A stretch of DNA of 64,000 nucleotides, from contig NZ_CP108054.1 of NCBI RefSeq assembly GCF_036173125.1, forward strand, positions 8,873,501 through 8,937,500. Direction: 5' to 3'. The stretch is from Streptomyces sp. NBC_00286. Its GTDB lineage: Bacteria; Actinomycetota; Actinomycetes; Streptomycetales; Streptomycetaceae. The notes under the pieces were generated by a model. The model made no database searches. It was not told the DNA's origin and worked only from the letters and a program-made list of their open reading frames with translations. Each line of letters starts with the position of its first letter. The first letter of the stretch is position 1. A program made the translations under genes and the position numbers. Positions 44,356-59,379 of the stretch are shown here, in pieces.

Positions 44356-45284
44356 ATGCGTGACGACATCACACGGATGCTCGTCAGCCGCGCCCAGTTC
44401 GACTACTCCGCCGAGGCGCGAGAGAAGATCCGCGAACGTACCCCTGCCGTCCGCGCGATCGAGCACACCATCGAGTACCTCGACCCGGTCGGCTCCTGCC
44501 ACAGCTTCGTGCCCACCCTGGGCCGGCTGGTCCCGCAACTGCCGGGCAGGAGTTCACCGAGAACGAGCGGGAGACCGTCCGCCGGCAGATCGGCCGTGTC
44601 CGCGCTGCGGCGGGCTGGCTCGAAGGCACTCTCGACCACGGCGAGTTCACCCTGGACGAGCAACTCGTCCGGCTCCTCGTGGGCACGAACGGCCAGGAGT
44701 TCGGCAACGCCCTCGCCGACGTCCTGCTGGGCCTCGTCGAACCGGGCGGCCGGCTGCCCACCACCTGGCCCGACAACGAACACGCTCTACCGTCCACACA
44801 ACCCACCGACGGCGCGCTGCGCTACGACGAGGGACTTCACGTCGGATACCGCAGGTACCGGGCCGGCGCCCCAGCACCCCGGTACCCCTTCGGACACGGA
44901 CTGGGCTACACGACGTGGGACTACCTCTCGATCGACGCACCGACCAGCGTGGACCTGGACAGGGAGGTGGACATCACCGTCCACCTACGCAACAGCGGCC
45001 GGCGCCCCGGCCGGGAGGTTGTGCAGGTCTACCTGCGCCGGCCCGGCAGCGCCATCGAACGACCGGCCCGCTGGCTGGCCGGGTTCACCGCCATCAGCGC
45101 CGCACCGGGCGAAGAGGTCACCGCGACGGTGCCGCTGACAACGCGAGCGTTCCAACACTGGAACACCACAGACGGCCGTTGGAGCCTCGAGCCGGGTACG
45201 TTCCACCTCGACGTCGGCTCCTCCGCCGGCGCCGTACCCCTCACAGCCGATCTCACCGTCCGCATACCGAGCGAGCCGGCGTGA
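44356..45284 (+). pseudogene. Broken gene: unknown N-terminal part joined to a GH3 beta-glucosidase C-terminal domain
   Basis: From about 44679 to 45284 the third frame reads GQEFGNALADVLLGLVEPGG, LPTTWPDNE, YRRYRAGAPAPRYPFGHGLGYTTWDY and an FnIII-like end: the C-terminal domains of a GH3 enzyme. The whole N-terminal catalytic barrel is missing. The preceding 300 bases give a different, helical sequence (MRDDITRMLVSRAQFDYSAE at 44356 in another frame; NERETVRRQIGRVRAAAGWL in the GH3 frame) that does not look like GH3. A frameshift near 44545 separates the two. So this is a decayed fusion, not a working glucosidase. Confidence 0.7.
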
Positions 45285-45377
45285 ATCCGTCGCCGGGGAT
45301 CAGCGACGTTGTTCCACAACTCCGTGGTCGACTTCGTGAGCGGCGTGGCTGCGAACGGCGCGAGGCCCCCTCGGGCG

Positions 45378-46280
45378 TCAACTCCGGGTCAGATCCCGTG
45401 CGCTGCGGCTGATTCGGGCGAGCGCGACGCGGGCAGCAACGACGGCCGGGTGATCGTGGCTGCCAGTGCGGGTAGCGATGAGGACGCGCCGAGTGTTCGG
45501 CGGCGTCAGTTCGGAAAGTGTCACCGTAGGAGCGTGGACGCCCCAGGCAAGTTTGGGGAGAAATCCGACCGCCTGCCCGGCTTCGATCAATCTCACATGG
45601 AAGGTGAGGTCGGTCGACTGGTAGCGAACGTGGGGTTCAAAGCCGGCTTGGCGGCAGACAGCGCTGGCCCAGCGCCTGGCGGCATTGCCCTCGGGCTCCA
45701 TGACCCAGGGCAGGTGTGCGAGAGCTGCGAGTTGCGGCGGCTCGCCGTCCGGTGGGGTGGCTAGAAGAAGAGGATCCTCGAGGAGAAGCTGAGTGTGCAG
45801 GCCGGTCAGAGCCGACGGCGGCTCTCCTGGGTACTCCTCGGCGATGACCAGGTCGTATTCGTGCGCGACAAGCGCCCGCAGCGGTGTGCGTTCGTTCTCC
45901 TGATGCACGTGGACGCGAAGCTGCGGATGCTCGCGCTGAAGCAGTTCTACGGCAGGCAGGACCAGAGTCTTGGCAGCAGTCTGAAAGGTTGCAATCCGCA
46001 GGTCCCCCTCGAGCACGGTTTTGGCCCGGGCGATATCGGCCTCGGCCTGCTCGAGCCGGTCCAGGATCACCTCGATATGCCCGACCAGCATCTCCGCCGC
46101 GGGCGTCAGACGGACCCGACGTCCCATTGGTTCCAGGAGCGGGACGCCCACCTCGGCCTCCAGCTGCGAAAGCTGCGAGGAGATGGTCGAAGGACTGTAC
46201 GAGAGGGCCGAAGCCACAGCTGCAAGGGTGCCGCGGTGCTTGAGTTCGCGCAGCAACCGGAGCCGGTGAAGGTCGTACAT
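45378..46280 (-). CDS. LysR-family regulator
   Basis: The 300-residue protein starts MYDLHRLRLLRELKHRGTLA at the ATG at 46280; the helix-turn-helix is AVASALSYSPSTISSQLSQLE. The C-terminal co-inducer domain covers residues about 90-300. It is divergent from the amino-acid ABC operon and separated from it by 511 bases that hold an 8-bp inverted repeat. In the family, LysR genes usually control the divergent operon, so it should activate uptake when the transported compound or its product is present. Confidence 0.9.
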   Translation of the reverse strand: MYDLHRLRLLRELKHRGTLAAVASALSYSPSTISSQLSQLEAEVGVPLLEPMGRRVRLTPAAEMLVGHIEVILDRLEQAEADIARAKTVLEGDLRIATFQTAAKTLVLPAVELLQREHPQLRVHVHQENERTPLRALVAHEYDLVIAEEYPGEPPSALTGLHTQLLLEDPLLLATPPDGEPPQLAALAHLPWVMEPEGNAARRWASAVCRQAGFEPHVRYQSTDLTFHVRLIEAGQAVGFLPKLAWGVHAPTVTLSELTPPNTRRVLIATRTGSHDHPAVVAARVALARISRSARDLTRS

Positions 46281-46791
46281 CACGCACCAATCGCCGCCCG
46301 CGACCACCGATTCGTCACGTGGGACAACCAATCGTACGCGAAAGCATTTGCTGCCCCGCATTGAGGCACCGCGAGACTGCCGGCGCCGTTGACTTCCTGC
46401 CGGCTTGGGGAGGGCCGCTCCCAGCGGCCGCGGTGGGGCAGCCGTGCGGTGCCTGATCACATCGCGCACGGTGTCCTCGTCGCCCTGCACCAGCTGGGCG
46501 ATACCGGAACCGGTTCCCGCCCGCCGAGGCCGGCAGCATCATCGCGCGCCGTTGATTGGTCGAAAATATCGATGAGTGCGCATCGATAACAACGACTGGA
46601 CCGGACAATGCGGGGCCGCCTAGCATTCCAGGACCGCGAGAATCGGCCACCCCGAGATCCGCGCCACGGCCGCCGCAGCCCGCGGCGCCTTGTACTGGTC
46701 GTCAGTCTCCCCACGCTGTCGTCGCTGCCTGCCGGCTCGCCCGTCCGCCGTAGGCCGATCAGATATCACGCCATGCAACCTCGGAGAGGCC
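46281..46791. other. 511-bp divergent regulatory region
   Basis: No credible gene is present. It holds the promoters of the LysR gene and the ABC operon. The region near 46556-46590 is clearly richer in A and T than its surroundings and carries the inverted repeat listed at 46567-46588. Confidence 0.6.
46567..46588. promoter_or_regulatory. Candidate LysR operator
   Basis: TATCGATG-AGTGCG-CATCGATA has perfect 8-bp arms. It includes the T-N11-A spacing of LysR sites and lies about 205 bases from livH and 290 from the LysR gene. Confidence 0.55.
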
Positions 46792-48114
46792 ATGACACCA
46801 CCCCGTGCACGTTGGCGCGTACGCCGCCATCCTGCTCGCCTGTCACCACTGCTGGGAGCGGTCATGATCCTGGTCGCCCTGCTCGGCGTCGTGGCAGCGA
46901 GCGCTCCGACGTACGCGGCCGGCGATCGGACCGTGCAGGGAACGCTGCGCAACTCTGCAGACAACAACGCACCGGTCGCCGGGGTGAAGGTCAGTGTCCA
47001 GACCAGTACGGGGAAGACCTACACGGGCGCCAGCGACGACCAAGGCCGGTTCGCGATCACTGTGCCCGGCAGTGACTCCGGCACTCTGGCCGTCATCCTG
47101 GACACCAAAACGCTTCCTGATGACGTGCAGATCCGCGACGGAACGTCGAACACCTTGCGGCCAACGGGCACCTTGAGCACGATCACCGTCAACTTCCCCC
47201 TCGGTCCCGACACGCGTCAAGTGTCGACGGTGTGGGACCAGGTCCCCCAACTGCTCTACAACGGTCTGTTGTTCGGCCTGGTGCTGTCGTTGGGGGCTCT
47301 TGGCCTGTCCATGGTGTTCGGCACGACGGGACTGTCGAACTTCTCCCACGGCGAGCTGGTGACCTTCGGGGCGTTCGCCACCTATCTCGGCAACCGGGTC
47401 GTAGGGCTGCCCATCGTCGTGGCCGTGGCGGTGGCGGTAGGGCTGTCGGCATTCTTCGGCTACCTGAACGAAAAGGGTTTGTGGAGGCCACTCAGACGCC
47501 GGGGAACGGGACTGATCGCCATGATGATCGTCTCGATCGGTCTGCAGTTCTTTCTCCGGAACTTCTACCAGTACTTCACAGGTGGCCGCGCCTTGACCTA
47601 CCGCGACTACGTCACGCCCGTCGGCCGGGATGCCTTCGGCTTGTTCACCTACACCATGCGGGATGTCGTCGTCTTCTCCATCAGCGGGCTTGCGCTCGTG
47701 GCGGTCACTCTTGCTTTGCAGTACACCCGGCTCGGTCGCGCCACACGCGCGGTGTCGGACAATCCGGCCCTGGCCTCTGCGACGGGGATCAACGTCGGTC
47801 GTGTCATAGCCACGGTGTGGATCGTGGGCACCGCGCTGGCGGGACTGAGCGGAGCGTTCCTGGGATTCTCCCAGTCGGTGAGCTACCAACTGGGCGCGCA
47901 GGTACTGCTGTTGATCTTCGCCGCTACCTGCGTCGGAGGTCTGGGATCAGTGTGGGGCGCGCTGATCGGCTCGATCATCATCGGGCTGTTCGTCGAGACC
48001 TCAACCTTGGTCATCCCATCGGAACTCAAGTTCGCAGGCGCGATGGTTCTGCTGGTGCTGGTCCTGCTCGTCCGACCACAAGGCCTGCTCGGCCGTGCCG
48101 AGAGGATCGGGTGA
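46792..48114 (+). CDS. Branched-chain-type ABC permease (LivH) with an extra exported N-terminal domain
   Basis: The 440-residue protein begins with a signal-like segment (about 10-42, ASAPTYA) and a carboxypeptidase-regulatory-like beta domain (about 45-140, GVKVSVQTSTGKTYTGASDD and FAITVPGSD). Only then comes the LivH permease (about 155-440; LSLGALGLSMVFGTTGLSNF, RATRAVSDNPALASATGIN). The extra domain should face outwards and might dock the binding protein. The start is ATG at 46792 with GAGAGG. The next permease gene begins four bases after its stop. Confidence 0.9.
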   Translation: MTPPRARWRVRRHPARLSPLLGAVMILVALLGVVAASAPTYAAGDRTVQGTLRNSADNNAPVAGVKVSVQTSTGKTYTGASDDQGRFAITVPGSDSGTLAVILDTKTLPDDVQIRDGTSNTLRPTGTLSTITVNFPLGPDTRQVSTVWDQVPQLLYNGLLFGLVLSLGALGLSMVFGTTGLSNFSHGELVTFGAFATYLGNRVVGLPIVVAVAVAVGLSAFFGYLNEKGLWRPLRRRGTGLIAMMIVSIGLQFFLRNFYQYFTGGRALTYRDYVTPVGRDAFGLFTYTMRDVVVFSISGLALVAVTLALQYTRLGRATRAVSDNPALASATGINVGRVIATVWIVGTALAGLSGAFLGFSQSVSYQLGAQVLLLIFAATCVGGLGSVWGALIGSIIIGLFVETSTLVIPSELKFAGAMVLLVLVLLVRPQGLLGRAERIG

Positions 48115-48118
48115 GGAC

Positions 48119-49099
48119 ATGGACATCATCGGCGCCGTCACGGGGGCACTGCACGACGGCTTCGGCTATCTCGCCGTCTCGTTCTGCCTGGCTGCGATCG
48201 GTTTGAACATTCAGTTCGGCTACGCCGGGTTGGTCAACTTCGGTCAGGCCGCCTTCTTGTCGGTAGGCGGTTACATCATGGGCGCGGCGATCGCCACCAG
48301 CGGAGTTCCCACCGTCCTGGCGATCCTGCTCGCGATCGCCTTCAGCGTGGCGTTGGCGTTGATATTGGGTATCCCCACCCTGCGTCTTCGGGCGGATTAC
48401 CTGGCGATCGTCACCATCGCGGCGGCAGAGATCCTACGACTTGTGTTCGGGACGTCGTTCCGGACGTACTTTCACGGCAAGGACGGTGTGACCGGCTTCA
48501 CCGCCGGGTTCCGAAGCCTCAACCCGCTGCCGAACTACGACGGCTTCTTCCTGACCTACAGCCGGGAGGAACTGTGGACAGTCCTCGTCGGCTGGGGCCT
48601 GGTCATCATGATCAGTCTGCTCACCTGGGCCCTGATGCGATCACCGTGGGGAAGGGTTCTTCGGGGCATCCGTGAAGACGAGGACGCGATGCGGTCTCTG
48701 GGCAAGAACGTCTACGGCTACAAGATCCAGGCCCTCATCCTCGGTGGAGTGGTCGGATGCGCCGGAGGCTTCGTGGGCGCGTTCGGGGCCGCTTCCGTCC
48801 AGGCCGACACGTTCAACCTGGACTTCACCTTCATCGCCTTGACCATGCTCATCCTCGGTGGCGCCGCTCGGATCCTTGGTCCGGTCGTCGGCGCGGTGAT
48901 GTTCTGGGCGATCCTGTCGTTCCTCGGATCGGTCCTGACGCAGTTGGCCGGCTACCCGGTCGTGGCGCAGTTCATGAACGCCGACCAAGCGTCAATCATC
49001 CGGCTGATGTTGGTCGGACTGGTGCTGATGCTGCTGATGATCTACCGGCCGCAAGGCATCTTCGGTGATCGAAGGGAGCTCGCGCTCGATGCCCACTGA
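48119..49099 (+). CDS. Branched-chain-type ABC permease (LivM)
   Basis: A 326-residue permease with about eight to nine membrane segments and the LivM hallmarks GLNIQFGYAGLVNFGQAAF and GRVLRGIREDEDAMRSLGKN. It is the second channel subunit of the importer. The end overlaps the start of the livG gene by 11 bases, a sign of translational coupling. Confidence 0.93.
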   Translation: MDIIGAVTGALHDGFGYLAVSFCLAAIGLNIQFGYAGLVNFGQAAFLSVGGYIMGAAIATSGVPTVLAILLAIAFSVALALILGIPTLRLRADYLAIVTIAAAEILRLVFGTSFRTYFHGKDGVTGFTAGFRSLNPLPNYDGFFLTYSREELWTVLVGWGLVIMISLLTWALMRSPWGRVLRGIREDEDAMRSLGKNVYGYKIQALILGGVVGCAGGFVGAFGAASVQADTFNLDFTFIALTMLILGGAARILGPVVGAVMFWAILSFLGSVLTQLAGYPVVAQFMNADQASIIRLMLVGLVLMLLMIYRPQGIFGDRRELALDAH

Positions 49100-50120
49100 C
49101 AACTTCCCCACCGACCACCCCTCCTCGGGCACCGCACCCAAGGACGTCTACGCTGCCGGTGACACGTCCCAGGCAAGGGTGCCCGACCCCGGCGCCGCGG
49201 AGAACAAGTCGATGCGCGAGTGCCGGACTGCTTTGCAGTCGGTGCCGCATGAGCCCGGCGCTGCCAAACCCGACCCCGTTGTGGTCGTGAACGGAATCCG
49301 CCGCACCTTCGGAGGCCTCACCGCGGTCGACGTGGAACATCTCGAAATCCAACGCGGGGTCATCACCGCCTTGATCGGACCCAACGGTGCAGGCAAGACC
49401 ACGTTCTTCAACCTGCTCACCGGTTTCGATCAACCCGATGCCGGTTCATGGTCCTTCGACGGGACACCGCTCAAAGGCAAAGCAGCCTACAAAGTGGCAC
49501 GCCTCGGCATGGTCCGGACCTTCCAGCTGACCAGAGTGCTCTCGAAACTGACAGTGCTGGAGAACATGCGGATGGGTGCCACAGGTCAGCGTGGCGAACG
49601 CTTGTGGGCCGCCGCGCTCCCCGCCCTGTGGCGGGCGCAGGAACGAGACATCACCGACCGGGCCCGAGACCTGCTCAAGCGGTTCAAGCTCGACGCCAAG
49701 GAGGAAGACTTCGCCGGATCCCTGTCAGGCGGTCAGAGAAAGCTGCTCGAGATGGCGCGAGCGCTCATGGTCGAACCGAAGCTGGTCATGCTCGACGAAC
49801 CCATGGCCGGCGTCAACCCAGCGCTGAAGCAGTCCCTGCTCGGACATGTGAAGTCGCTGCGGGATCAGGGGATGAGCGTCCTGTTCGTCGAACACGACAT
49901 GGACATGGTGCGAGAGATCTCCGACTGGGTGGTGGTCATGGCCCAGGGCAAGGTAATCGCCGAGGGACCCCCCGCATCCATCATGTCCGACGAACGTGTG
50001 ATCGACGCCTACCTCGGTGCTCGCCACGACACCGACATCAGCGAGCTCGAACACGTGCTCAAGGTCGAGCACGCGCACGACCACGCCGAGCAGAAGGTCG
50101 ACCGGGAGGTCCCGAGATGA
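49089..50120 (+). CDS. Branched-chain-type ABC ATPase (LivG)
   Basis: The 343-residue ATPase has Walker A (GPNGAGKTT), signature LSGGQRK, Walker B (LVMLDEP) and the H-loop (FVEHDMDM). Compared with usual LivG proteins of about 255 residues it has some 60 extra residues at the N-terminus and a His/Glu-rich tail. The start at 49089 is supported by GGGAG upstream. It overlaps both neighbours, so the operon is tightly coupled. Confidence 0.93.
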   Translation: MPTDNFPTDHPSSGTAPKDVYAAGDTSQARVPDPGAAENKSMRECRTALQSVPHEPGAAKPDPVVVVNGIRRTFGGLTAVDVEHLEIQRGVITALIGPNGAGKTTFFNLLTGFDQPDAGSWSFDGTPLKGKAAYKVARLGMVRTFQLTRVLSKLTVLENMRMGATGQRGERLWAAALPALWRAQERDITDRARDLLKRFKLDAKEEDFAGSLSGGQRKLLEMARALMVEPKLVMLDEPMAGVNPALKQSLLGHVKSLRDQGMSVLFVEHDMDMVREISDWVVVMAQGKVIAEGPPASIMSDERVIDAYLGARHDTDISELEHVLKVEHAHDHAEQKVDREVPR

Positions 50121-51001
50121 CTACTGCCCATCACGGCCCATCGGACTCCCAGGTCACCGATCAGGGCGAGATCGTGGCTGACACCGATCCCAACGCCCCG
50201 AAGATCGACCAGGCAGCGCGGACAAGGCATCTGCAGGCGGCCGAGGGCGCAACCCTTCGCGCCGACAATCTGATCGCCGGGTACCTCCCCGGAGTCAACA
50301 TCTTGAATGGCGCCGATCTGTACTGCCAACCCGGCGAGTTGGTCGGCATCATCGGACCCAACGGCGCCGGCAAGTCGACACTGCTCAAAGCACTCTTCGG
50401 GCTGGTCAGGGTCACGACCGGGACGGTTCGCCTGCGGGGCGAGGAGGTCACGAACCAGCGCGCCGACGCACTGGTATCCCAAGGGATCGGCTTCGTACCG
50501 CAGACCAACAACATTTTCCCCTCGCTCACCATCGAGGAAAACCTGCAGATGGGGTGCTATCAGTCCCCCAAGAAGTTCGCCCCCCGGTTTACGTTCGTGA
50601 CCGATCTGTTCCCTGCGCTGGGCCGGCGCCGCAAGCAGCGGGCCGGACAACTGTCAGGCGGTGAGCGGCAAATGGTGGCTATGGGCCGGGCTCTGATGAT
50701 GGAACCCTCCGTGTTGTTGCTCGACGAACCCTCAGCGGGCCTGTCCCCGGCGATGCAGGACGAGGTGTTCGTCCAGACCCGAGCCATCAACCGCACCGGT
50801 GTATCGGTCGTCATGGTCGAGCAGAACGCACGCCGCTGCCTGCAGATCTGCGACCGCGGATACGTCCTCGACCAAGGACGCAACGCCTACACCGGGTCCG
50901 GACAGTCGCTGGCCCGTGACCCCAGGGTGATCGAGCTGTATCTCGGCACCTTGGCCAAGGCCGCCCAGGCAGAAGGCACGCCTGGCGGCAGGCGGAACTA
51001 G
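50117..51001 (+). CDS. Branched-chain-type ABC ATPase (LivF)
   Basis: The 294-residue ATPase has GPNGAGKSTLLKALFGL, LSGGERQMVAMGRALM and LLLDEPSAGLSP. An N-terminal tail of about 45 acidic residues is longer than usual. The start ATG overlaps the livG stop (ATGA). It completes the ATPase pair; the binding protein gene follows 117 bases later. Confidence 0.93.
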   Translation: MTTAHHGPSDSQVTDQGEIVADTDPNAPKIDQAARTRHLQAAEGATLRADNLIAGYLPGVNILNGADLYCQPGELVGIIGPNGAGKSTLLKALFGLVRVTTGTVRLRGEEVTNQRADALVSQGIGFVPQTNNIFPSLTIEENLQMGCYQSPKKFAPRFTFVTDLFPALGRRRKQRAGQLSGGERQMVAMGRALMMEPSVLLLDEPSAGLSPAMQDEVFVQTRAINRTGVSVVMVEQNARRCLQICDRGYVLDQGRNAYTGSGQSLARDPRVIELYLGTLAKAAQAEGTPGGRRN

Positions 51002-51118
51002 GAACACGACCCCACATGCCGGTCGAACCGTCCCCTCGCGTTCGATCCTGACACCCGCCACGGCACGGTCGTGCACCACACCAATACCGCAGCAGTCCTC
51101 ACCCACCCTGGAGGTCCC

Positions 51119-52429
51119 ATGTCGCTCCCGAGACGCATCCCCTGTATCGCCGTTCTGGCCTCCGCCGCGCTGGCAACCGCCGCCTGCAGCTCTAACAGCA
51201 GCCCCACCGCAGCCGGCAGCGAGCCGCCAGCCAAGGCGGGCACCCAGCTCTACTTCGTGGACGGCAACACCGCCGACTACTCCGGTGATTTCGAGCCCGG
51301 CACTCTCAAGGGTGTGCGCGCCACCCTCCCCGGCGGCAAGATCGGCGACGAGTTCCGGCAGAGGATCCTCAAGATCAACAGCAAGGTGAAGGACTTCACC
51401 TACGCTCCGGAGGCCTACGACGCCACGATCCTCTCAGCCCTGGCCGCGGTCGCCGCCAAGAACGACTCCGGCAAGGCGATCGCCGGGAAGGAGATCGGCG
51501 TCACCAGGGATGGGACAAAATGCACCAGCTTCAAGCAGTGCGCTGACCTACTCGCCGACGGAACGGACATCGACTACGACGGCCCCTCCGGCCCGATCGA
51601 GATGAACTCGACAGGAAGCCCCTCCGCGGCGACCGTCGGCATCTACCAATTCGGGCAGGACAACAACTACAAGAATGTCGGCTACGTCAACGGCACCACC
51701 CCGGACCAGGCCAACATCCGAGCCGATCAGAAGGTCAGCGGCCCCATCCCCAAGGGGGACGGGACCCTTACGTTCGGCACCCTGCTCCCAGGCACCGGGG
51801 ACAGCTCCTTCCTCGGCGCCCCGCAGTTCGCCGGCGTGGACCTGGCCATTGACGAAATCAACAAGGCCGGGGGTGTTCTGGGCAAGAAGGTGAAGCAGTT
51901 GAAGGGCGACTCCGGTGACGGGTCGCCGAACATCGCGCCATCCGAGACCGACAAACTGCTCCGCGGTGGTGCCGACGTCATCATCGGCGCCGCTTCCTCG
52001 TCGGTGTCGCTGTCGGTCATCGACAAGATCACCGGGGCCGGCGTCGTCCAGATATCGGCCGGGAACACCTCGACCGCATTCGACACCTACCCCGACCACG
52101 GCATGTACTTCCGCACGGCCCCCTCCGACGTCCTGCAGGGGCAGGTGATGGCCCAGACCATCAGCGAGGACGGGCACAGCAACATCGCAATCCTCGCCCG
52201 GCAGGACGCCTACGGAGAGGCATTGGCGAAGAACGTCCGCTCCTTCTACGAAGAGTCCGGCGGCAAAGTCGTCTCCTATGCCCTCTACGACGCGAACGCA
52301 GCCAACTACACGGCCGAGGTGGAGAAGGTGAAGGCCCAGCACCCGGACGCCATCGTGCTGATCTCGTTCGACGAGAGCAAGAAGATCGTCCCGGAACTCA
52401 TCAAAGCCGGCATCGGGCAGAACGGCTGA
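51119..52429 (+). CDS. Amino-acid-type ABC binding lipoprotein with circularly permuted order
   Basis: The 436-residue protein has a signal peptide with lipobox TAAC and a short linker. Then, at residue 42, comes TQLYFVDGNTADYSGDFEPG, followed by KDFTYAPEAYDATILSALAA and IDYDGPSGPIEMN: the part that normally forms the C-terminal end of this family. Only from about residue 213 does the usual N-terminal part start (TLTFGTLLPGTGDSSFLGAP, VDLAIDEINKAGGV, VIIGAASSSVSLSVIDKITG), and the protein stops at KKIVPELIKAGIGQNG, exactly where relatives continue with the YFVDGN segment. The halves are thus swapped with no residues lost. The gene lies in place as the last ABC gene of the operon. It could be a real working permutation or a rearranged gene. 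Confidence 0.85.
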   Translation: MSLPRRIPCIAVLASAALATAACSSNSSPTAAGSEPPAKAGTQLYFVDGNTADYSGDFEPGTLKGVRATLPGGKIGDEFRQRILKINSKVKDFTYAPEAYDATILSALAAVAAKNDSGKAIAGKEIGVTRDGTKCTSFKQCADLLADGTDIDYDGPSGPIEMNSTGSPSAATVGIYQFGQDNNYKNVGYVNGTTPDQANIRADQKVSGPIPKGDGTLTFGTLLPGTGDSSFLGAPQFAGVDLAIDEINKAGGVLGKKVKQLKGDSGDGSPNIAPSETDKLLRGGADVIIGAASSSVSLSVIDKITGAGVVQISAGNTSTAFDTYPDHGMYFRTAPSDVLQGQVMAQTISEDGHSNIAILARQDAYGEALAKNVRSFYEESGGKVVSYALYDANAANYTAEVEKVKAQHPDAIVLISFDESKKIVPELIKAGIGQNG

Positions 52430-52521
52430 GCCCCTGCCTGGCCGGTGGTCGTGGCTCCGGATCCGCCCCGCAGCCACGACCACCCGGACTGCAGTATCGC
52501 CCGTGGAGTGAAGGGTTTCGC

Positions 52522-53754
52522 ATGACCACCAGACCAACAAAAGCCATGCCCACCGCCACCGCAGCGTACGGTGCCGACCCCGATTTTGACACGGTGTACG
52601 ACCGCGCCCCTTTCGGGTCAGCCAAATGGGCAAACCAATGGGACGAATTCTCCCCGCGTGTCCAGGGCGAGGGTCTGCTGTCGCTGTGGACGGCCGACAT
52701 GGATTTCCGGGCGCCAACGACCGTCATCGACCGCCTGCGCGCCGCTGCGGACCACGGTATCTACGGCTACACCCTGCGAGACCCGGAACACTTCCAGATC
52801 GTGCAGAACTGGTTCACCGTCAGGCACGGCTGGACACCACCGGTGGAAACCCTCCTTCCGGCCCCTGCGATCATGTCCTCGGTCGCAGCAATTTTGCGCA
52901 CCTTCACCGCCCCTGGAGATGGGGTGATCGTCCAATCACCGGTCTACTCGCCGAACTTCGAGGCTATTACCGGTAACGAGCGGCGGCTGCTCGTGAACCG
53001 GCTGCGGCTCATCGACAACCGATACGAGTTCGACCTCGACAACCTGGCCGAGCTGGCCGCATCCGGCGCGAAGGTGCTGTTGCTCTGCAACCCGCACAAT
53101 CCCTCGGGCCGGAGCTGGACGGCCGAGGAGTTGCTCGCCGTGAACGACATCTGTGCGCGCTACGACCTTCTGGTGATTTCCGACGAGATTCACTGTGACA
53201 TCCGACTGAACGGTCGGCCCCACGTGGTCTACGCCTCGATCAGCAGCGATGCCGCCCGCCGAGCATTCATCTGCACTGCCCCCACGAAGACGTTCAACCT
53301 AGCCGGCCTGCCATCGGCCACGCTCTCGGTTGCCGATCCATCCCTACGCTCGGAACTGCTGAACGTCATGCGGGCATCGTTCATGATCAACGCGCACTAC
53401 TTCGGTCGTCTGGCCTTGGAGACCGCCTACACGACGGGTGGTCCCTGGCTCGACAGGCTGACCGACTATCTCAAGGGCAACGTGGCCTTCGTGCACGAGT
53501 TCGTCCAAGAGCGCCTGCCCGAGATCACGCCGATGCCGCCGGACGCATCGTTCCTGGTCTGGCTGGAGGCTCGTGAACTTGACGCTCGTGTGGGCGGGCT
53601 GCATCAGTTCCTTGTCGACCGTGCGGCTGTCAATCTCTACGACGGCCGGGTCTACGGCCCCGGAGGAGAGGGGTACGTCCGACTCAACGTCGGCTGCCCC
53701 CGGAAGGTGCTGACTGAGGCGCTCGAACGCATCGATCGTGCGCTGTCGCGATAG
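52522..53754 (+). CDS. PLP-dependent C-S lyase (MalY/PatB family)
   Basis: The 410-residue aminotransferase-fold protein starts MTTRPTKAMPTATAAYG and has LSLWTADMDFRAP, YGYTLRD, LLLCNPHNPSGRSWT, LVISDEIHCDI and the PLP-binding Lys in APTKTFNLAGL. These are marks of the MalY/PatB cystathionine beta-lyase group, which split C-S bonds of cystathionine and S-substituted cysteines to give a thiol, pyruvate and ammonia. The gene directly follows the ABC importer, so the imported compound may be a sulfur amino acid. Start at 52522, after GTGAAGGG. Confidence 0.88.
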   Translation: MTTRPTKAMPTATAAYGADPDFDTVYDRAPFGSAKWANQWDEFSPRVQGEGLLSLWTADMDFRAPTTVIDRLRAAADHGIYGYTLRDPEHFQIVQNWFTVRHGWTPPVETLLPAPAIMSSVAAILRTFTAPGDGVIVQSPVYSPNFEAITGNERRLLVNRLRLIDNRYEFDLDNLAELAASGAKVLLLCNPHNPSGRSWTAEELLAVNDICARYDLLVISDEIHCDIRLNGRPHVVYASISSDAARRAFICTAPTKTFNLAGLPSATLSVADPSLRSELLNVMRASFMINAHYFGRLALETAYTTGGPWLDRLTDYLKGNVAFVHEFVQERLPEITPMPPDASFLVWLEARELDARVGGLHQFLVDRAAVNLYDGRVYGPGGEGYVRLNVGCPRKVLTEALERIDRALSR

Positions 53755-53921
53755 CGCTCCTCGACCTCACCGCCACGAGCGACTGCTCGCAGCGGTACCA
53801 GCGGTGGTACGAAGACGTGTCGGCCTTCGACACCAGTGACGATCAAGCCGTCACATCCGCCCGCGTCTTCGTCGACACAGTCACCACGCGGGCACAGGGG
53901 TCCGCTCCCACCGGCAGCTGA
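53754..53921 (+). pseudogene. Short gene remnant after the lyase gene
   Basis: From 53754 to a TGA at 53919 an open stretch without start reads ALLDLTATSDCSQRYQRWYE and ends RAQGSAPTGS. It has coding-like codon use but no start or ribosome site. It may be the tail of a lost gene; the family is not recognised. Confidence 0.35.
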
Positions 53922-54132
53922 TTTCCCAGCGAAAGTTTCGAATAGAGCTGCTCACGCGACGGAAACGTTGACCCGATAGCAACCGGTTCCTACACTGAAC
54001 GTGCTCAAGCTGATCATCTTCCTTCTGCTGTCGAAGTAGATCGTCGCCGGGGGATGCAGGGCGCCGTCAAGGGCTGACCCCACCCCAGCAACAGCCACTT
54101 GAGTCACCTGAGTCATCTGTGAAAGGACCGGC
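53922..54132 (+). promoter_or_regulatory. Control region of the GH43 gene with two operator-like palindromes
   Basis: CGAAA-G-TTTCG (53930-53940) is a perfect palindrome, and AGCAACCGGTTCC (53979-53991) contains the perfect core AACCGGTT. Both kinds are typical of LacI-family regulators. A weaker GGAAACGTT lies between. The ribosome site GAAAGGA precedes the ATG at 54133. Confidence 0.6.
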
Positions 54133-55761
54133 ATGACCTCGGGCCACCTCCGAAACCCCGTGCTGCGCGGTTTCCATCCGGACCCGAGCATCCTGCGCGT
54201 CGGCGCGGACTACTACATCGCCACCTCGACCTTCGAGTGGTACCCGGGCGTGCCCGTGCACCGCTCCAAGGATCTCGTCCACTGGGAGCCGGCCGGCCAC
54301 ATCCTGGACCGCCCGGATCTGCTCGACCTGCGCGGAGTCGCCGACTCGGCCGGCGTCTGGGCGCCTTCACTGTCGTACCACGACGGGCAGTTCTGGCTGG
54401 TCTACACGATCGTCCGCACCATCGGGAGCCCCTTCAAGGACCTCGACAACTACCTGATCACGGCCCCGTCGATCGAGGGCCCGTGGTCCGAGCCGGTGTT
54501 CCTGAACTCCTCCGGCTTCGACCCGTCCTTCTTCCACGACGAGGACGGCCGCAGCTGGCTGCTGAACATCCAGTGGGACCCGCGCGACGACCGTCCGTCC
54601 TTCGCCGGGATCCTGCTCCAGGAGTACGACTCCGACAAGCGGGCCCTGATCGGACAGCCCCGCACGATCCTCCAGCACGACGAGCTGATCGAGGGCCCCA
54701 ACGTCTACCGTCGGGGCGGCTGGTACCACCTGATGCTCGCCGAGGGCGGCACCGGCTGGAACCACGGCATCCTCATGGCCCGCTCACGCGAGCTGACCGG
54801 ACCGTACGAACTCGACCCGCTCGGCTCGCTGTTGACCACCCGGGACACCCCGGACTGGCCACTGCAGAAGGCCGGTCACGGCGAGCTGGTCGAGACGCCG
54901 GCGGGGGAGTGGTACCTCGCGCACCTCGCCTCCCGCCCCGTAAAGACGCCCGACGGGCCGCGCTGCGTTCTCGGCAGGGAGACCTGCCTGCAGCGCGTGT
55001 CCTGGACGGACGACGGCTGGCTGCGGCTGGCCGATGAGGGTCGGCTGCCGAGTCTGGAGGTTCTGGCACCCACGGGGGTGGAGCCGGGACCGCCGGGCCC
55101 GGTCGCCGGGTCTCCGGCCCGGGACGACTTCAACTCGCCATCTCTGGACGGGGGTTGGAGCACTCTGCGGGCCCCCGCGACTTCCGAGTGGCTGACGCTC
55201 GGCGAACGCCCAGGACATCTGCGGCTGCGCGGCCGGCAGAGTCCGCACTCGCTCTTCGACCAGAGCCTGGTCGCACGGCGGCTCACTTCGGTGCGGTGCG
55301 AGGTGACGACGGTCGTCGACTTCCGCCCCTCCCACTTCAGCCAGCGCGCGGGCCTCATCTGCTGGTACGACACGTCGACGCACTACTACCTGCGCCTCAC
55401 CCACACCGAGGGCAGGGGACGCGTCCTGGGCGTGGTGCTCACCGACGACGGGGCGTACGAGGAAGTCCAGGAGTCCGAACTCGACGTCGACGACTGGCCG
55501 TTGGCGTACCTGCGGGCCCGCTTCGACGGCACGGAACTGCGCTTCTTCGCCTCACCCGACGGGACGGACTGGCAGGCCGTGGGCCCGGTCCTGGACGCGA
55601 GCAAGCTCTCCGACGACTACGGGAACCGGTTGCGGTTCACCGGCACGTTCGTCGGAATCTGCGCACAGGACCTGAGCGGGACACGAACCCCGGCCGACTT
55701 CGACTGGTTCGAGGTGCGGGATCTCGACGGTGGGGATGACGGGGACGGCGAGCAGGAGTAG
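54133..55761 (+). CDS. Glycoside hydrolase family 43 (beta-xylosidase/arabinofuranosidase type)
   Basis: The 542-residue protein starts MTSGHLRNPVLRGFHPDPSI and has the three GH43 acids: Asp17 in HPDPS (base), Asp in SSGFDPSFFHDEDG (pKa modulator) and Glu in ELIEGPNVY (acid). The C-terminal beta-sandwich (about 340-535, with FSQRAGLICWYDTSTHYYLR) is the one seen in XynB-type enzymes. There is no signal peptide, so short xylo- or arabino-oligosaccharides would be cut inside the cell. It is convergent with an ABC importer operon that would bring them in. Operators lie upstream. Confidence 0.93.
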   Translation: MTSGHLRNPVLRGFHPDPSILRVGADYYIATSTFEWYPGVPVHRSKDLVHWEPAGHILDRPDLLDLRGVADSAGVWAPSLSYHDGQFWLVYTIVRTIGSPFKDLDNYLITAPSIEGPWSEPVFLNSSGFDPSFFHDEDGRSWLLNIQWDPRDDRPSFAGILLQEYDSDKRALIGQPRTILQHDELIEGPNVYRRGGWYHLMLAEGGTGWNHGILMARSRELTGPYELDPLGSLLTTRDTPDWPLQKAGHGELVETPAGEWYLAHLASRPVKTPDGPRCVLGRETCLQRVSWTDDGWLRLADEGRLPSLEVLAPTGVEPGPPGPVAGSPARDDFNSPSLDGGWSTLRAPATSEWLTLGERPGHLRLRGRQSPHSLFDQSLVARRLTSVRCEVTTVVDFRPSHFSQRAGLICWYDTSTHYYLRLTHTEGRGRVLGVVLTDDGAYEEVQESELDVDDWPLAYLRARFDGTELRFFASPDGTDWQAVGPVLDASKLSDDYGNRLRFTGTFVGICAQDLSGTRTPADFDWFEVRDLDGGDDGDGEQE

Positions 55762-55880
55762 GGGTGCTCCGCCAGTAGTGCCCGGCGAACGCCTCGGCGT
55801 CAGTAGCGCCTGGCGAAGCGCCTCGGCGGTCAGCGACGAAGTTACGTCGCTGACCGCCGAGTTGCGTTCCAAAGGCTTGG

Positions 55881-56819
55881 CTACTTGAGCGCGCCCAGGG
55901 TGACGCCGCTCCGCCAGTAACGCCGCATCGCGACCATCATGATCGCCATCGGGATGATGGACAGCAGCGCGCCCGTCAGGACGAGGCTGGTCACGTCGAT
56001 GCCCGACTCCAGGCGCTTGCCGGACCAGTTGTACAGGCCCAAGTTGAGCGTCCAGTTCTCCTCGCCGCGCAGCACGGTCAGCGGGAGGAAGAAGGCGTTC
56101 CAGGTGTTGACGAAGGCGAGCAGGAACACCGTCGCGCCGCCCGTGGTCATCATCCGCAGCACGATGCTGAAGAAGATCCGCAGCTCCCCGGCGCCGTCGA
56201 TCCGGGCCGCCTCAAGCAGCTCGAACGGGATCGTGGCCTCCGTGTAGACCTTGGCCAGGTACACGCTGAACGGGTTGATCAGGCAGGGGATCAGCATCGC
56301 CCAGGGGGTGTCGACCAGGCCGATCTCCGAGAACATCAGGTACAGCGGCAGGGTGAGCAGCGCGATCGGGATGAGGAAGGAGCCCACCACGGCCGCGAAC
56401 ACCACGCCGCGCCCGGGGAAGTCGAAGCGGGCAAGCCCGTAGCCTGTGAGGAGGGCGATGAGGGTGCCGCCGAGGGAGCCGACTCCCGCGTACAGGAACG
56501 AGTTGGCGGTCCAGCGCAGGAAGATGCCGTCCTCGTAAGTGAACACCTGCTGCAGGTTCTCCCACAGATGGAAGCCGGAGAACCACAACCCGTTGCTCTG
56601 GTACAGCCCCACGCGATCCTTGGTCGCGGCGATGATCAGCCAGTACACCGGGAACAGGCTGTAAGCGCTGGCCAGGACCAGACCGACGAGGATGAACCGC
56701 TGCCCACCCCGTGAACGGGCAGCGGGGTCGGGGCGGGTGCGCCGCCGGACGGCGGGCCCGTTGGGTGGCACGGCGGCGGTTTCCGCGCCCTTTTCCTTAC
56801 GGTTTTCCGTCAGCGCCAT
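55881..56819 (-). CDS. Sugar ABC transporter permease (MalG type), second importer
   Basis: The 312-residue permease has an Arg/Pro-rich N-terminal tail, six membrane segments and the EAA loop LLEAARIDGAGELRIFFSIV. Its start overlaps the stop of the other permease (TGATG). It belongs to the importer whose binding protein gene is at 57714 and faces the GH43 gene. Confidence 0.94.
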   Translation of the reverse strand: MALTENRKEKGAETAAVPPNGPAVRRRTRPDPAARSRGGQRFILVGLVLASAYSLFPVYWLIIAATKDRVGLYQSNGLWFSGFHLWENLQQVFTYEDGIFLRWTANSFLYAGVGSLGGTLIALLTGYGLARFDFPGRGVVFAAVVGSFLIPIALLTLPLYLMFSEIGLVDTPWAMLIPCLINPFSVYLAKVYTEATIPFELLEAARIDGAGELRIFFSIVLRMMTTGGATVFLLAFVNTWNAFFLPLTVLRGEENWTLNLGLYNWSGKRLESGIDVTSLVLTGALLSIIPMAIMMVAMRRYWRSGVTLGALK

Positions 56820-57703
56820 CAGTCCACCTCCCTCGAGGTCAGTCGGTAGAAGACGAAGGACGCCACACCGAGGATCAGGGCGAGCAGCACCGACAGGGCC
56901 GCGGCGTAGTGGTAGTTGCCGGCGTTGAACGCCTGGTTGTAGATGATCATGATCGGGGTGAAGCTGTCGCTGACCGTCTGCGGCGTCACGTTCCTGAACA
57001 GCGCGGGCTCGTTGAAGATCTGCAGCATCTGGATGATCGACAGCAGAGCGGTCAGGACGAGCGCCCCACGTACGAACGGGATCTTGATGCTCAGCGCGAT
57101 CCGCATCTCGGAGGCGCCGTCGAGCCGCGCGGCCTCGAAGAGCTCACGGGGTACGCCCTGCAGCGCCGCGTAGATGATCACCATGTTGTAGCCGATGCCG
57201 TGCCAGGTCAGCAGATTGCCGATGGCCGGCCACACCATCGAGGGCGCGAAGAAGTTCCAGTCGAAGCCGAACAGCTCGCCGAGCGGCGTCAGCGGGCCCA
57301 CCTCGGGGCTGTACAGGTTGACCCACACGATGGCCGCGACCACGCCGGGGATCATGTACGGGACCAGCAGCAGGATCCGGAACCGGCCGGCCACCTTCGA
57401 GGTGACCGCGTCCAGGAGGAGCGCCAGCACCAGGCTGATCAACAGCATGAACGGGATCTGCACGCAGGCGAACAGCACCACCCTGAGGATGGACGTCATG
57501 AACGCCGAGTCGGTCAGGCCCTGCTGGTAGTTCTCCAGCCCGACGAACTCCCTGGTCGCGCCGCCGAGACCGAGCCCGGACTGCTTCTGCAGATACAGCG
57601 ACTGGTAGACCGCGTAGCCGATCGGAAGCAGATAGAGGAAGACGAAGCCGAGCTGGAAGGGCACCGTGAACGCGGCACCCTTCCAGCGCAGTGAGCGAAT
57701 CAT
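56819..57703 (-). CDS. Sugar ABC transporter permease (MalF type), second importer
   Basis: A 294-residue permease with the EAA loop ELFEAARLDGASEMRIALSI. The binding protein gene ends 10 bases upstream, and its own stop overlaps the next permease start, so the three are one unit. The ATPase is not encoded here, as is usual for such systems in Streptomyces. Confidence 0.94.
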   Translation of the reverse strand: MIRSLRWKGAAFTVPFQLGFVFLYLLPIGYAVYQSLYLQKQSGLGLGGATREFVGLENYQQGLTDSAFMTSILRVVLFACVQIPFMLLISLVLALLLDAVTSKVAGRFRILLLVPYMIPGVVAAIVWVNLYSPEVGPLTPLGELFGFDWNFFAPSMVWPAIGNLLTWHGIGYNMVIIYAALQGVPRELFEAARLDGASEMRIALSIKIPFVRGALVLTALLSIIQMLQIFNEPALFRNVTPQTVSDSFTPIMIIYNQAFNAGNYHYAAALSVLLALILGVASFVFYRLTSREVD

Positions 57704-57713
57704 GAAGTGTGCC

Positions 57714-59048
57714 TCAGCCCTTGACGCTGATGCCGCGCTGCTTCAGGTCGTTGACCGTCCACTGCTGCATGTGGTCGAGAAGGTCGGTGACCTTCTGCTC
57801 CTTGTTGACGACCTTGGCCCACTCGTCCTGCATCTCCGTGAACATCGCGGTCCAGTTCGGGCCGAAGGTCCAGTCGGTGTTGATGGTGCTCAGGCTGTCC
57901 GTGACGATCTTCTTGGCGGGCTCGTAGTTCTTGCCGAGCAGCTTCTCGGAGATCGCCTCCGAGACGTACGCGTCGCTGTCGGCCAGCGCCGGCATCACAC
58001 CGCTGCCGGTCTCGGGGCTCGCCATCGTCTTGACCGCGCCGGTGTCGGTGGACATCCACAGCGCCGCCTGGGCGGCCTGCTCCTTGTTCTTGCACTGCTC
58101 GGAGACCAGCGTCAGGTTGCCGCTCTGGTTGGTGCCGGCCGGAGTCTTGGGCGCCTCGCCCTTGAAGGTCGGCCACGGGGACAGCGCCCAGTCGCCGAAG
58201 GACTTGGTGAAGTTCTGCACCATGCCGGACATCTGCCAGGTGGAGATCTGCCGGGTCGCGGTGCCGCCGTTGTCGTAGTTGCGCTGCACGGCCGCGTAGT
58301 CGGCGAAGGAGAGCTTGGAGTTCAGGTCGTTGTCGATGATCTGCTGGATCACGTCGGCGGCCTTGAGCGTGCCCTCGTCCTTGAAGTTCACCGCCCAGGA
58401 GTCGCCCTCGACGGCGTACCACTTGGCTCCGGCCTGCATCGCCAGCACCTCGAGAGTGCTCGGGTCCTCACCGGCGTAGTTGGTGACCTTGATGTCGTGC
58501 TTCTTCAGTTCCTTGCCCGCGGCGATGAAGTCGTCCCAGGTCTGGGGCGGCTCCAGGTCGTACTTCTTGAAGAGGTCGGTGCGGTAGATGGTGAAGGCGG
58601 GCGCCGATGCGGTGGGAACGCCGTAGACCTTGCCCTGCACCTGACCGGTGGCCCACGAGCCGGGGTTGAACTTGTCCTTCTCGCCCTCGACGTACTCGGT
58701 GATGTCGGCGAGCGCGCCCTGGGAGACCCAGCTCGTCACGTACTCGCCGGTGTTCTGCATCAGACAGGGAGCGTTACCGGCCTTGACGGCGTTCGTCAGC
58801 TGCTTCTGCATGGTCAGCTGGTCGGTGACCTTGGTGTACTTCAGCTGGATGTCCTTGTGGCTGGCGTTGAACGCCTTCACGACGGCCTCCTGGCCGTTGG
58901 CCCAGCCCCAGAAGTCGAGGGTGACCGGACCCGAGGACTCGGCGGGCTCGTCGTCTCCGGGTCCGCCGCAGGCGGCGAGCAGACCTGTCAGGGCGATGCC
59001 CGCGACAGCGGCGCGAGCGAACCTTCTCCGGGGGTTGGTGAAGTTCAT
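57714..59048 (-). CDS. Sugar ABC transporter binding lipoprotein, second importer
   Basis: The 444-residue protein starts MNFTNPRRRFARAAVAGIAL at the ATG at 59048 and has lipobox LLAAC. The mature part (VTLDFWGWANGQEAVVKAFN) is a family 1 sugar-binding protein. It probably binds the oligosaccharide cut by the GH43 enzyme. Upstream at 59162-59175 is a box related to the AACCGGTT sites. The open frame extends further upstream, but no signal sequence would result from those starts. Confidence 0.93.
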   Translation of the reverse strand: MNFTNPRRRFARAAVAGIALTGLLAACGGPGDDEPAESSGPVTLDFWGWANGQEAVVKAFNASHKDIQLKYTKVTDQLTMQKQLTNAVKAGNAPCLMQNTGEYVTSWVSQGALADITEYVEGEKDKFNPGSWATGQVQGKVYGVPTASAPAFTIYRTDLFKKYDLEPPQTWDDFIAAGKELKKHDIKVTNYAGEDPSTLEVLAMQAGAKWYAVEGDSWAVNFKDEGTLKAADVIQQIIDNDLNSKLSFADYAAVQRNYDNGGTATRQISTWQMSGMVQNFTKSFGDWALSPWPTFKGEAPKTPAGTNQSGNLTLVSEQCKNKEQAAQAALWMSTDTGAVKTMASPETGSGVMPALADSDAYVSEAISEKLLGKNYEPAKKIVTDSLSTINTDWTFGPNWTAMFTEMQDEWAKVVNKEQKVTDLLDHMQQWTVNDLKQRGISVKG

Positions 59049-59161
59049 CGTACGGTCATCCTTCGAGGCGTAGACGATCGCGGAAGAGGGGTGGCTCGGT
59101 GGGGCGACGGCGAGCGGGGAAGACGTCGGCTCGTGTCTCGGAAACCCTCTGGCGGAAGCTG

Positions 59162-59175
59162 TAGAAAACGGTTGC
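59162..59175 (-). promoter_or_regulatory. LacI-like half-palindromic box before the importer operon
   Basis: Read on the reverse strand it is GCAACCGTTTTCTA, very like the AGCAACCGGTT boxes at 53979 and 63109. It lies about 115 bases before the start of the binding protein gene. Confidence 0.5.
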
Positions 59176-59379
59176 TGTGAAACGTAGGTCGCCCGTTCTG
59201 TTTCACGCAAGAGTCCGACGGCAAATTGTTAAGTTCGGTTGTCGGCGATGTGGCAGGTCGTCGTGGTCGCGTCCTGCCCGCGCATGGCAGCGAAAGCACA
59301 GGTCAGCGGTGCGCAGGCGCGGGCTTGTGGCAGTCTGGAAGCGCCCTCGCGCGCTTTCGATCGACCTAGAAGCCGTTTA

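Follow-up and report, generated by a model that had tools for sequence, protein, structure and literature searches.

The window, by which we mean the whole 64,000-nucleotide stretch of the Streptomyces sp. NBC_00286 chromosome analysed here (contig NZ_CP108054.1, 8,873,501 to 8,937,500), carries a gene for a LivJ-type substrate-binding protein (SBP) in which the two parts of the family stand in swapped order. The gene most probably encodes the lipid-anchored SBP of a branched-chain-amino-acid-type (HAAT/Liv) ATP-binding cassette (ABC) importer, naturally circularly permuted after a tandem duplication, in a rearrangement that seems to have recurred independently. This reading starts from what was observed directly, namely the order of the parts, the cut, the conservation, the low ratio of non-synonymous to synonymous substitution (dN/dS), the livHMGF linkage and a confident predicted fold. 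The protein is laid out as follows.

51119 to 52429, + strand: circularly permuted LivJ-type substrate-binding lipoprotein, 436 residues (profile matches, homologue order).
51119 to 51187, + strand: signal peptide up to the lipobox cysteine, Cys23 (TAAC; Cys23 codon 51185-51187; sequence motif).
51242 to 51697, + strand: C-terminal part of the canonical order, matching profile positions 274-425, which here comes first and holds D48 (canonical-relative profile).
51698 to 51760, + strand: new linker, residues 194-214, from the old C-terminus to the old N-terminus (alignment, profile, model).
51761 to 52426, + strand: canonical N-terminal part (up to profile position 271), now last, with the new C-terminus IGQNG (Pfam, profile, superposition).

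Positions 2-198 (of 343) of the Pfam family Peripla_BP_6 match residues 217-416, so that the start of the family sits at the end of the protein. The score of 110.3 bits is above the curated cut-off of 31.7, though for a partial profile only, with the rest of the family found upstream. A profile of 426 positions was built from the canonical-order proteins of loci L057-L117. Residues 42-193 match its positions 274-425 and residues 201-434 its positions 38-271, with loose matches persisting through linker residues 201-214 (positions 38 on). Each part therefore matches the family when aligned separately, and the last third of the family stands ahead of the other two thirds, to which the new linker connects it. 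Since the parts are swapped and not colinear from N- to C-terminus, the product is, judged by its sequence, a permuted offshoot of the Peripla_BP_6/HAAT family and not a standard member. The original prediction had claimed this order from the one sequence alone, and had added that IGQNG is the point at which relatives continue into TQLYFVDGN, with no residue seemingly lost. Both statements hold. In canonical relatives such as L057 and L075 the sequence GIGP/GVGP..-YFVDGN runs unbroken across the cut point, and the cut is nearly seamless, with 0-2 profile columns lost (positions 272-273 are unmatched, and residues 41 and 435-436 adjoin them). The lipid anchor has moved to a new terminus, as also foreseen; the signal peptide and lipobox Cys23 stand ahead of the moved C-terminal part, and Cys23 is invariant in a 38-row alignment. 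By its lipobox motif the product is a putative lipoprotein.

The AlphaFold model of the protein is confident, with the chain predicted to be ordered past residue 38. A structural aligner, covering residues 214-436, superposes residues 215-435 of this modelled C-terminal piece on the N-terminal part of LivJ-type chains. The cut, after profile position 271, falls in the C lobe of the model. Pocket positions were read by aligning the canonical family with 3ipc and 2lbp in HMMER and setting the window protein against the result. D48 aligns with Asp226 of the 3ipc chain sequence, Y365 with the Tyr of YGEGLA, S294 with the Ser after Cys and T317 with the Thr of the ATA motif, all 3ipc/2lbp residues that we assume to contact the ligand. 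Through the canonical family S294, T317, Y365 and F417 also align with residues of the leucine-binding protein that are presumably pocket positions. By alignment, then, the protein has the amino-acid pocket residues of the Peripla_BP_6/HAAT family. Because D48, S294, Y365 and F417 are invariant in the 38 rows (T317 nearly so), an amino-acid-like ligand is likely. By analogy with the canonical relatives, this ligand would be bound between the two lobes and passed to LivHM. The lipid anchor would hold the protein by its C lobe, where canonical relatives are held by the N lobe, and would sit 25 residues ahead of D48.

The gene lies within a cassette that encodes the other components of a Liv-type importer, all four of them upstream of the SBP gene.

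45378 to 46490, - strand: LysR-type regulator, divergent (longest open reading frame, ORF; start uncertain).
46690 to 48114, + strand: LivH-type permease with N-terminal extension (longest ORF; start uncertain; domain/family profiles).
48095 to 49099, + strand: LivM-type permease (domain/family profiles).
49065 to 50120, + strand: LivG-type ATPase (start uncertain; domain/family profiles).
50120 to 51001, + strand: LivF-type ATPase (within ORF 49448-51001; start uncertain; name by position, Pfam ABC_tran).
52522 to 53754, + strand: PatB-family C-S lyase, the last gene of the cassette (TIGR04350, 382 bits against a cut-off of 340).

At the loci of relatives the usual arrangement has livF-livG-livM-livH facing the SBP gene, whether that gene is canonical or permuted. 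As canonical and permuted genes usually share this place beside livFGMH, the permuted gene would most simply be the orthologue in place, the transporter's own binding protein and not an extra paralogue, and the rearrangement would have taken place in situ at the transporter locus. The Nitriliruptoria loci L054 and L056 have a different layout, and L061 has two permuted genes at one locus. It might be argued that the permuted protein is a sensor or scavenger that has kept the fold and is no longer an importer component. Other uses of permuted proteins do occur, since in L061 one of them is fused behind an HSP70-like domain and P0217 seemingly has an N-terminal membrane segment where a lipobox would be expected. 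At most loci, however, the permuted gene is the sole SBP gene found beside livFGMH, in the canonical gene's place, and the pocket-aligned residues S294, Y365, F417 and D48 do not vary in the 38 rows, so that we consider such a role improbable for the window protein. In the L061 fusion (L061:1031-4000, from an Acidimicrobiales metagenome-assembled genome, MAG) the HSP70-like domain takes up residues 48-394 and a permuted type-B SBP follows (Peripla_BP_6 at 750-985); the fused gene adjoins a second permuted SBP and livFGMH. In P0217, also permuted and of type B, the apparent membrane segment lies behind a hydrophilic stretch, as read from the sequence.

As to how an importer SBP came to be permuted, a tandem duplication followed by loss of both outer halves had been proposed. 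Permutation by duplication passes through a tandem-fusion intermediate, according to the available part of a published account (PMC3320104), and P0206, a protein of 759 residues, is a candidate for one: in it canonical copies are fused in frame in the arrangement N-C-N-C', with 99% identity between the copies over 317 aligned residues. Its inner stretch aligns in one piece with all six permuted proteins tried, of both types; window residues 4-433 fall on P0206 238-658 and residues 38-421 of P0223 on P0206 289-673. The proposal is thus supported, if unproven, coming as it does from a single sequence. On this scheme a canonical gene would have been duplicated in tandem, the copies would have fused in frame, and the outermost parts, N at the front and C at the back, would then have been lost. 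The nearest genome relative of P0206 is a single canonical gene, 89% identical, and for this reason its placement beside Nitriliruptoria in one tree (110 rows) was dropped. Remnants of the lost halves were looked for by matching each protein to 1500 bases on either side, at the window and at 72 other permuted loci. None was found beside the window gene. Matches were obtained at 17 of the 72 other loci, one being a true second copy, at L061; the remaining matches were judged by eye to be low-complexity or out-of-frame noise, since the stop-to-stop query includes untranslated sequence. Fission and re-fusion of two half-genes is a recognised second route in the same account as far as available (PMC3320104). 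We give it a small chance here, as neighbouring copies of the SBP gene do exist (L061, L067, besides the fusion P0206) and among 584 classified sequences no more than 6 are fragments (five of them distant homologues, the other located at a contig end), though ORFs of fewer than 150 residues lay outside the search and a short free C part could escape it. The L067 copies (L067:4896-8022, a Nocardioidaceae MAG) are two adjacent canonical SBP genes, one far more diverged from the window gene than the other.

The permuted order is widespread, and its cut falls at one of two sites, both in the C lobe and some 20 residues from each other. The 83 ORFs classed at 80 named loci comprise 24 permuted ones (in 23 loci), 58 canonical ones and 1 fragment. 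In a sample of the phylum 52 of 396 genomes match at E 1e-40 or better, comprising 8 permuted (the window, L118-L123 and L132), 41 canonical and 3 unclassified (G398, G484, G523). With a type-A permuted query, 99 of 150 sampled genomes of family f6 (the family of G346), from 29 of 44 genera, match along its length. All 30 f6 loci fetched are permuted (L132 and L166-L195 are f6 loci), and the permuted SBP looks like a family-wide trait. A class sample searched with L055 gave matches in 68 of 394 genomes; of 30 fetched loci 10 are permuted, including the window and one f6 genome, and 20 canonical. While the permutation itself was foreseen by the original prediction, this spread, the second cut site and the recurrence lay beyond its single-sequence view.

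Permuted forms fall into four groups, Nocardioidaceae-type, the L055 group, f6/f115 and type B. A tree of 110 rows requires 6 order changes and is disturbed by long branches; a 90-row tree, with 20 rows dropped, among them L002, L015, P0206 and the distant outgroups, requires 3. The clade of the window, 19 permuted rows, is nested in canonical Nocardioidaceae in the 90-row tree (100/97; 98* in the 110-row tree). A 62-row tree with more lineages, which omits L004-L008, L016-L037, 13 further named rows, rows with fewer than 320 filled columns and rows at least 69% identical to a kept row, requires 6 order changes, 5 of them forced by starred branches, and places the restored L015 among canonical rows. 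Approximately unbiased (AU) tests on the 62-row set reject every pairwise union, namely Nocardioidaceae-type with the L055 group (p 0.0003), with f6/f115 (p 6e-8) and with type B (p 2.8e-32), type B with f6/f115 (p 0.003), and the L055 group with f6/f115 (p 3.7e-7) and with type B (p 0.00065). On the 90-row set type A as one clade (p 0.0039), the L055 group with type B (p 0.0175) and all permuted forms together (p 0.00077) are rejected.

A number of points weigh on the other side. In the 110-row tree the canonical Streptomyces rows L002 and L015 group, on long branches, within type B. The AU p-values are weakened by the fact that the groups were defined with the trees in view, and the 90- and 62-row trees are without distant outgroups, so that the root, and hence the direction of change, is inferred. 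P0206 is a single sequence whose copies are near-identical, and it could be an assembly error. The structural aligner covered residues 214-436; for the C part (42-193) the comparison with canonical proteins is one of sequence. Binding, transport and the importer role of all members are predicted, from sequence and model. The AU test also fails to reject type B as one clade (p 0.164) or f6 and f115 as one clade (p 0.556), and we therefore count at least four separate permuted groups from the sequences, not six. Taking the canonical order as ancestral, which agrees with the canonical order of the solved relatives matched along their length and with the nesting of the window clade among canonical rows, we infer that four groups mean four origins. 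On this view Actinomycetota would have undergone the same rearrangement on at least three further, independent occasions, with cuts at two neighbouring sites of the C lobe. One ancient permutation, after which the canonical order was regained several times or was mixed in by gene conversion and transfer, would fit several permuted groups appearing deep in trees whose family root is not fixed, and the 3 to 6 order changes could include reversions, each requiring the same duplication step. It seems unlikely to us, given the rejection of a single permuted clade and of all six pairwise unions, the two differing cut sites, the position of the window clade inside canonical Nocardioidaceae and the canonical order of those solved relatives that are matched along most of their length.

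That the gene is genuine is seen from its own genome and from others. The genome is one 9.85-Mb contig with a single permuted copy, and its nearest relative there, the canonical-order paralogue C1:1820339-1821454, is only 43% and 32% identical and so too different for a misassembled twin; no closer intact second copy is present to explain the order. A protein search found the swapped order in 120 of 120 listed homologues, the best 120 of 7530 matches. Three such searches, each with a permuted query (window, L053 or L055), listed 360 proteins, of which 359 were classed as permuted; the remaining one is the tandem P0206. A few of the 359 have odd profile boundaries (for example, in the L053 search 5 of 119 start at 264-265 and 1 ends at 271, and in the L055 search starts of 278, 295 and 353 and an end of 161 occur), which we take as loose local alignment or fragments. 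The window-type cassette or its end is present on five named contigs (L038-L042); it is whole, with protein identity of 87-98%, in S. scabichelini, Streptomyces sp. GESEQ-4 and Nonomuraea sp. G32, and interrupted by contig ends in two further Nonomuraea. Of 150 congeneric genomes sampled, and among the matches listed, only the own genome matched the query in full; two other Streptomyces outside that listing carry the permuted gene (L038, L041). Pairwise dN/dS is 0.14-0.31 against the five window-type contigs and 0.35-0.36 against L043 and L045, and the signal-peptide region diverges faster than either of the two parts. The same order in separately assembled genomes, with low dN/dS, indicates on these comparisons that the permuted gene is genuine and maintained. 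The main rival named at the outset, a misassembled or misannotated tandem repeat of a canonical gene, is almost certainly wrong, for although tandem genes of the family exist (L061, L067, P0206) and such copies can misassemble, the same order recurs in those 120 homologues, in 23 of 80 named loci and along the query in 99 of 150 f6 genomes, the window lies inside a single contig with only that remote paralogue, and dN/dS is well below 1.

The DNA of the cassette (44800-54200; LysR-livHMGF-SBP-patB) is 93-96% identical to the loci of two other Streptomyces and one Nonomuraea, which suggests recent horizontal transfer; the cassette would have spread between the two genera in this way. Plasmid carriage was considered and rejected: among 99 records from a plasmid collection one covers at least 80% of the query, in 2 pieces, and that record, from Nonomuraea gerenzanensis, is as large as a chromosome. 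The patB gene is found in 5 of 5 window-type loci and in 0 of 75 others, several of which are interrupted by contig ends. As its product is a C-S lyase, its presence suggests, and does no more than suggest, a sulfur-containing amino acid as ligand. Coupling of the permuted order to the N-terminal extension of LivH was considered and rejected, similar extensions being found in permuted and canonical loci; the extension has a sub-threshold match to CarboxypepD_reg (26.4 bits against a cut-off of 32.3). Adjoining the cassette, 54133-59210 encodes a GH43 glycosidase with a GH43_C2 domain and, on the opposite strand, an SBP_bac_1 protein and two ORFs that read as sugar-type permeases.

Natural permutation of cluster-B binding proteins is already known. 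TpMglB-2 (Tp0684) of Treponema pallidum is described, in the available text, as a natural permuted cluster-B (Type I) SBP lipoprotein of an ABC importer in which the first three N-lobe strands are relocated to the end, adding a fourth lobe crossing (PMC4990184). Its authors propose the name 'Type Ic / cluster Bc', report the same topology in other treponemes and Gram-positives, and raise the question of tethering; the moved part is poorly conserved, at a reported 13% (PMC4990184). The window protein is likewise a circularly permuted, tethered cluster-B SBP with an ABC importer. TpMglB-2 belongs to the sugar (MglB) family and is cut in the N lobe, however, whereas the window protein belongs to the LivJ family and is cut in the C lobe of its model, not after the third N-lobe strand; both of its parts are 31-66% identical to canonical relatives, and several separate groups exist. 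No chain named TpMglB-2 was among 57 PDB sequences matched at E 0.001, and no direct comparison was made; Foldseek and VIA-align gave no row of that name among the rows listed, which is uninformative either way. Glycine-betaine- and molybdate-binding proteins, with less than 24% identity, have a permuted relationship detected by structure only, and are thus permuted ABC-type binding proteins as here, but they are distant families and no locus with both orders is described in the part of the source available (PMC2395249). Swaposin and DNA methyltransferases share the duplication mechanism with a tandem-fusion intermediate in other folds, according to the available portion of PMC3320104. Canonical LivJ/LivK-type proteins (2lbp, 3ipc, 4gnr) have the fold predicted for the window protein and the same profile, aligned pocket positions and livHMGF-type linkage, with the other order of parts and the other position of the lipid anchor. 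Canonical Actinomycetota orthologues (L057, L060, Aeromicrobium), with livFGMH adjoining, are 58-66% identical in both parts, but have the N part first. In the openly licensed literature we found no report of a LivJ-type permuted binding protein, the permuted binding proteins there being those of PMC4990184 and PMC2395249. As far as these searches show, the LivJ family, these cuts, the recurrence and the replacement in place are new.

It is possible, though we hold it to be rather doubtful, that the permutation is an adaptive and repeatedly selected re-anchoring, in which at least four Actinomycetota lineages moved the tether from the N lobe to the C lobe by cutting one of the two loops flanking the VDGN strand, because tethering at the C lobe improves docking, release or envelope reach. 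The family combines several natural permutations with canonical orthologues that occupy the matching genomic position; it has two favoured cut sites and, in P0206, a candidate for the tandem intermediate. It thus offers a natural experiment on how permutation arises, on whether it is neutral and on the effect of tether position on a Venus-flytrap protein, as well as ready-made permuted scaffolds for amino-acid biosensors. Because of the permuted order, profile-based annotation detects only part of such proteins. Overall, the permuted order appears to be a genuine and viable alternative architecture for a nutrient-uptake protein that is very common.
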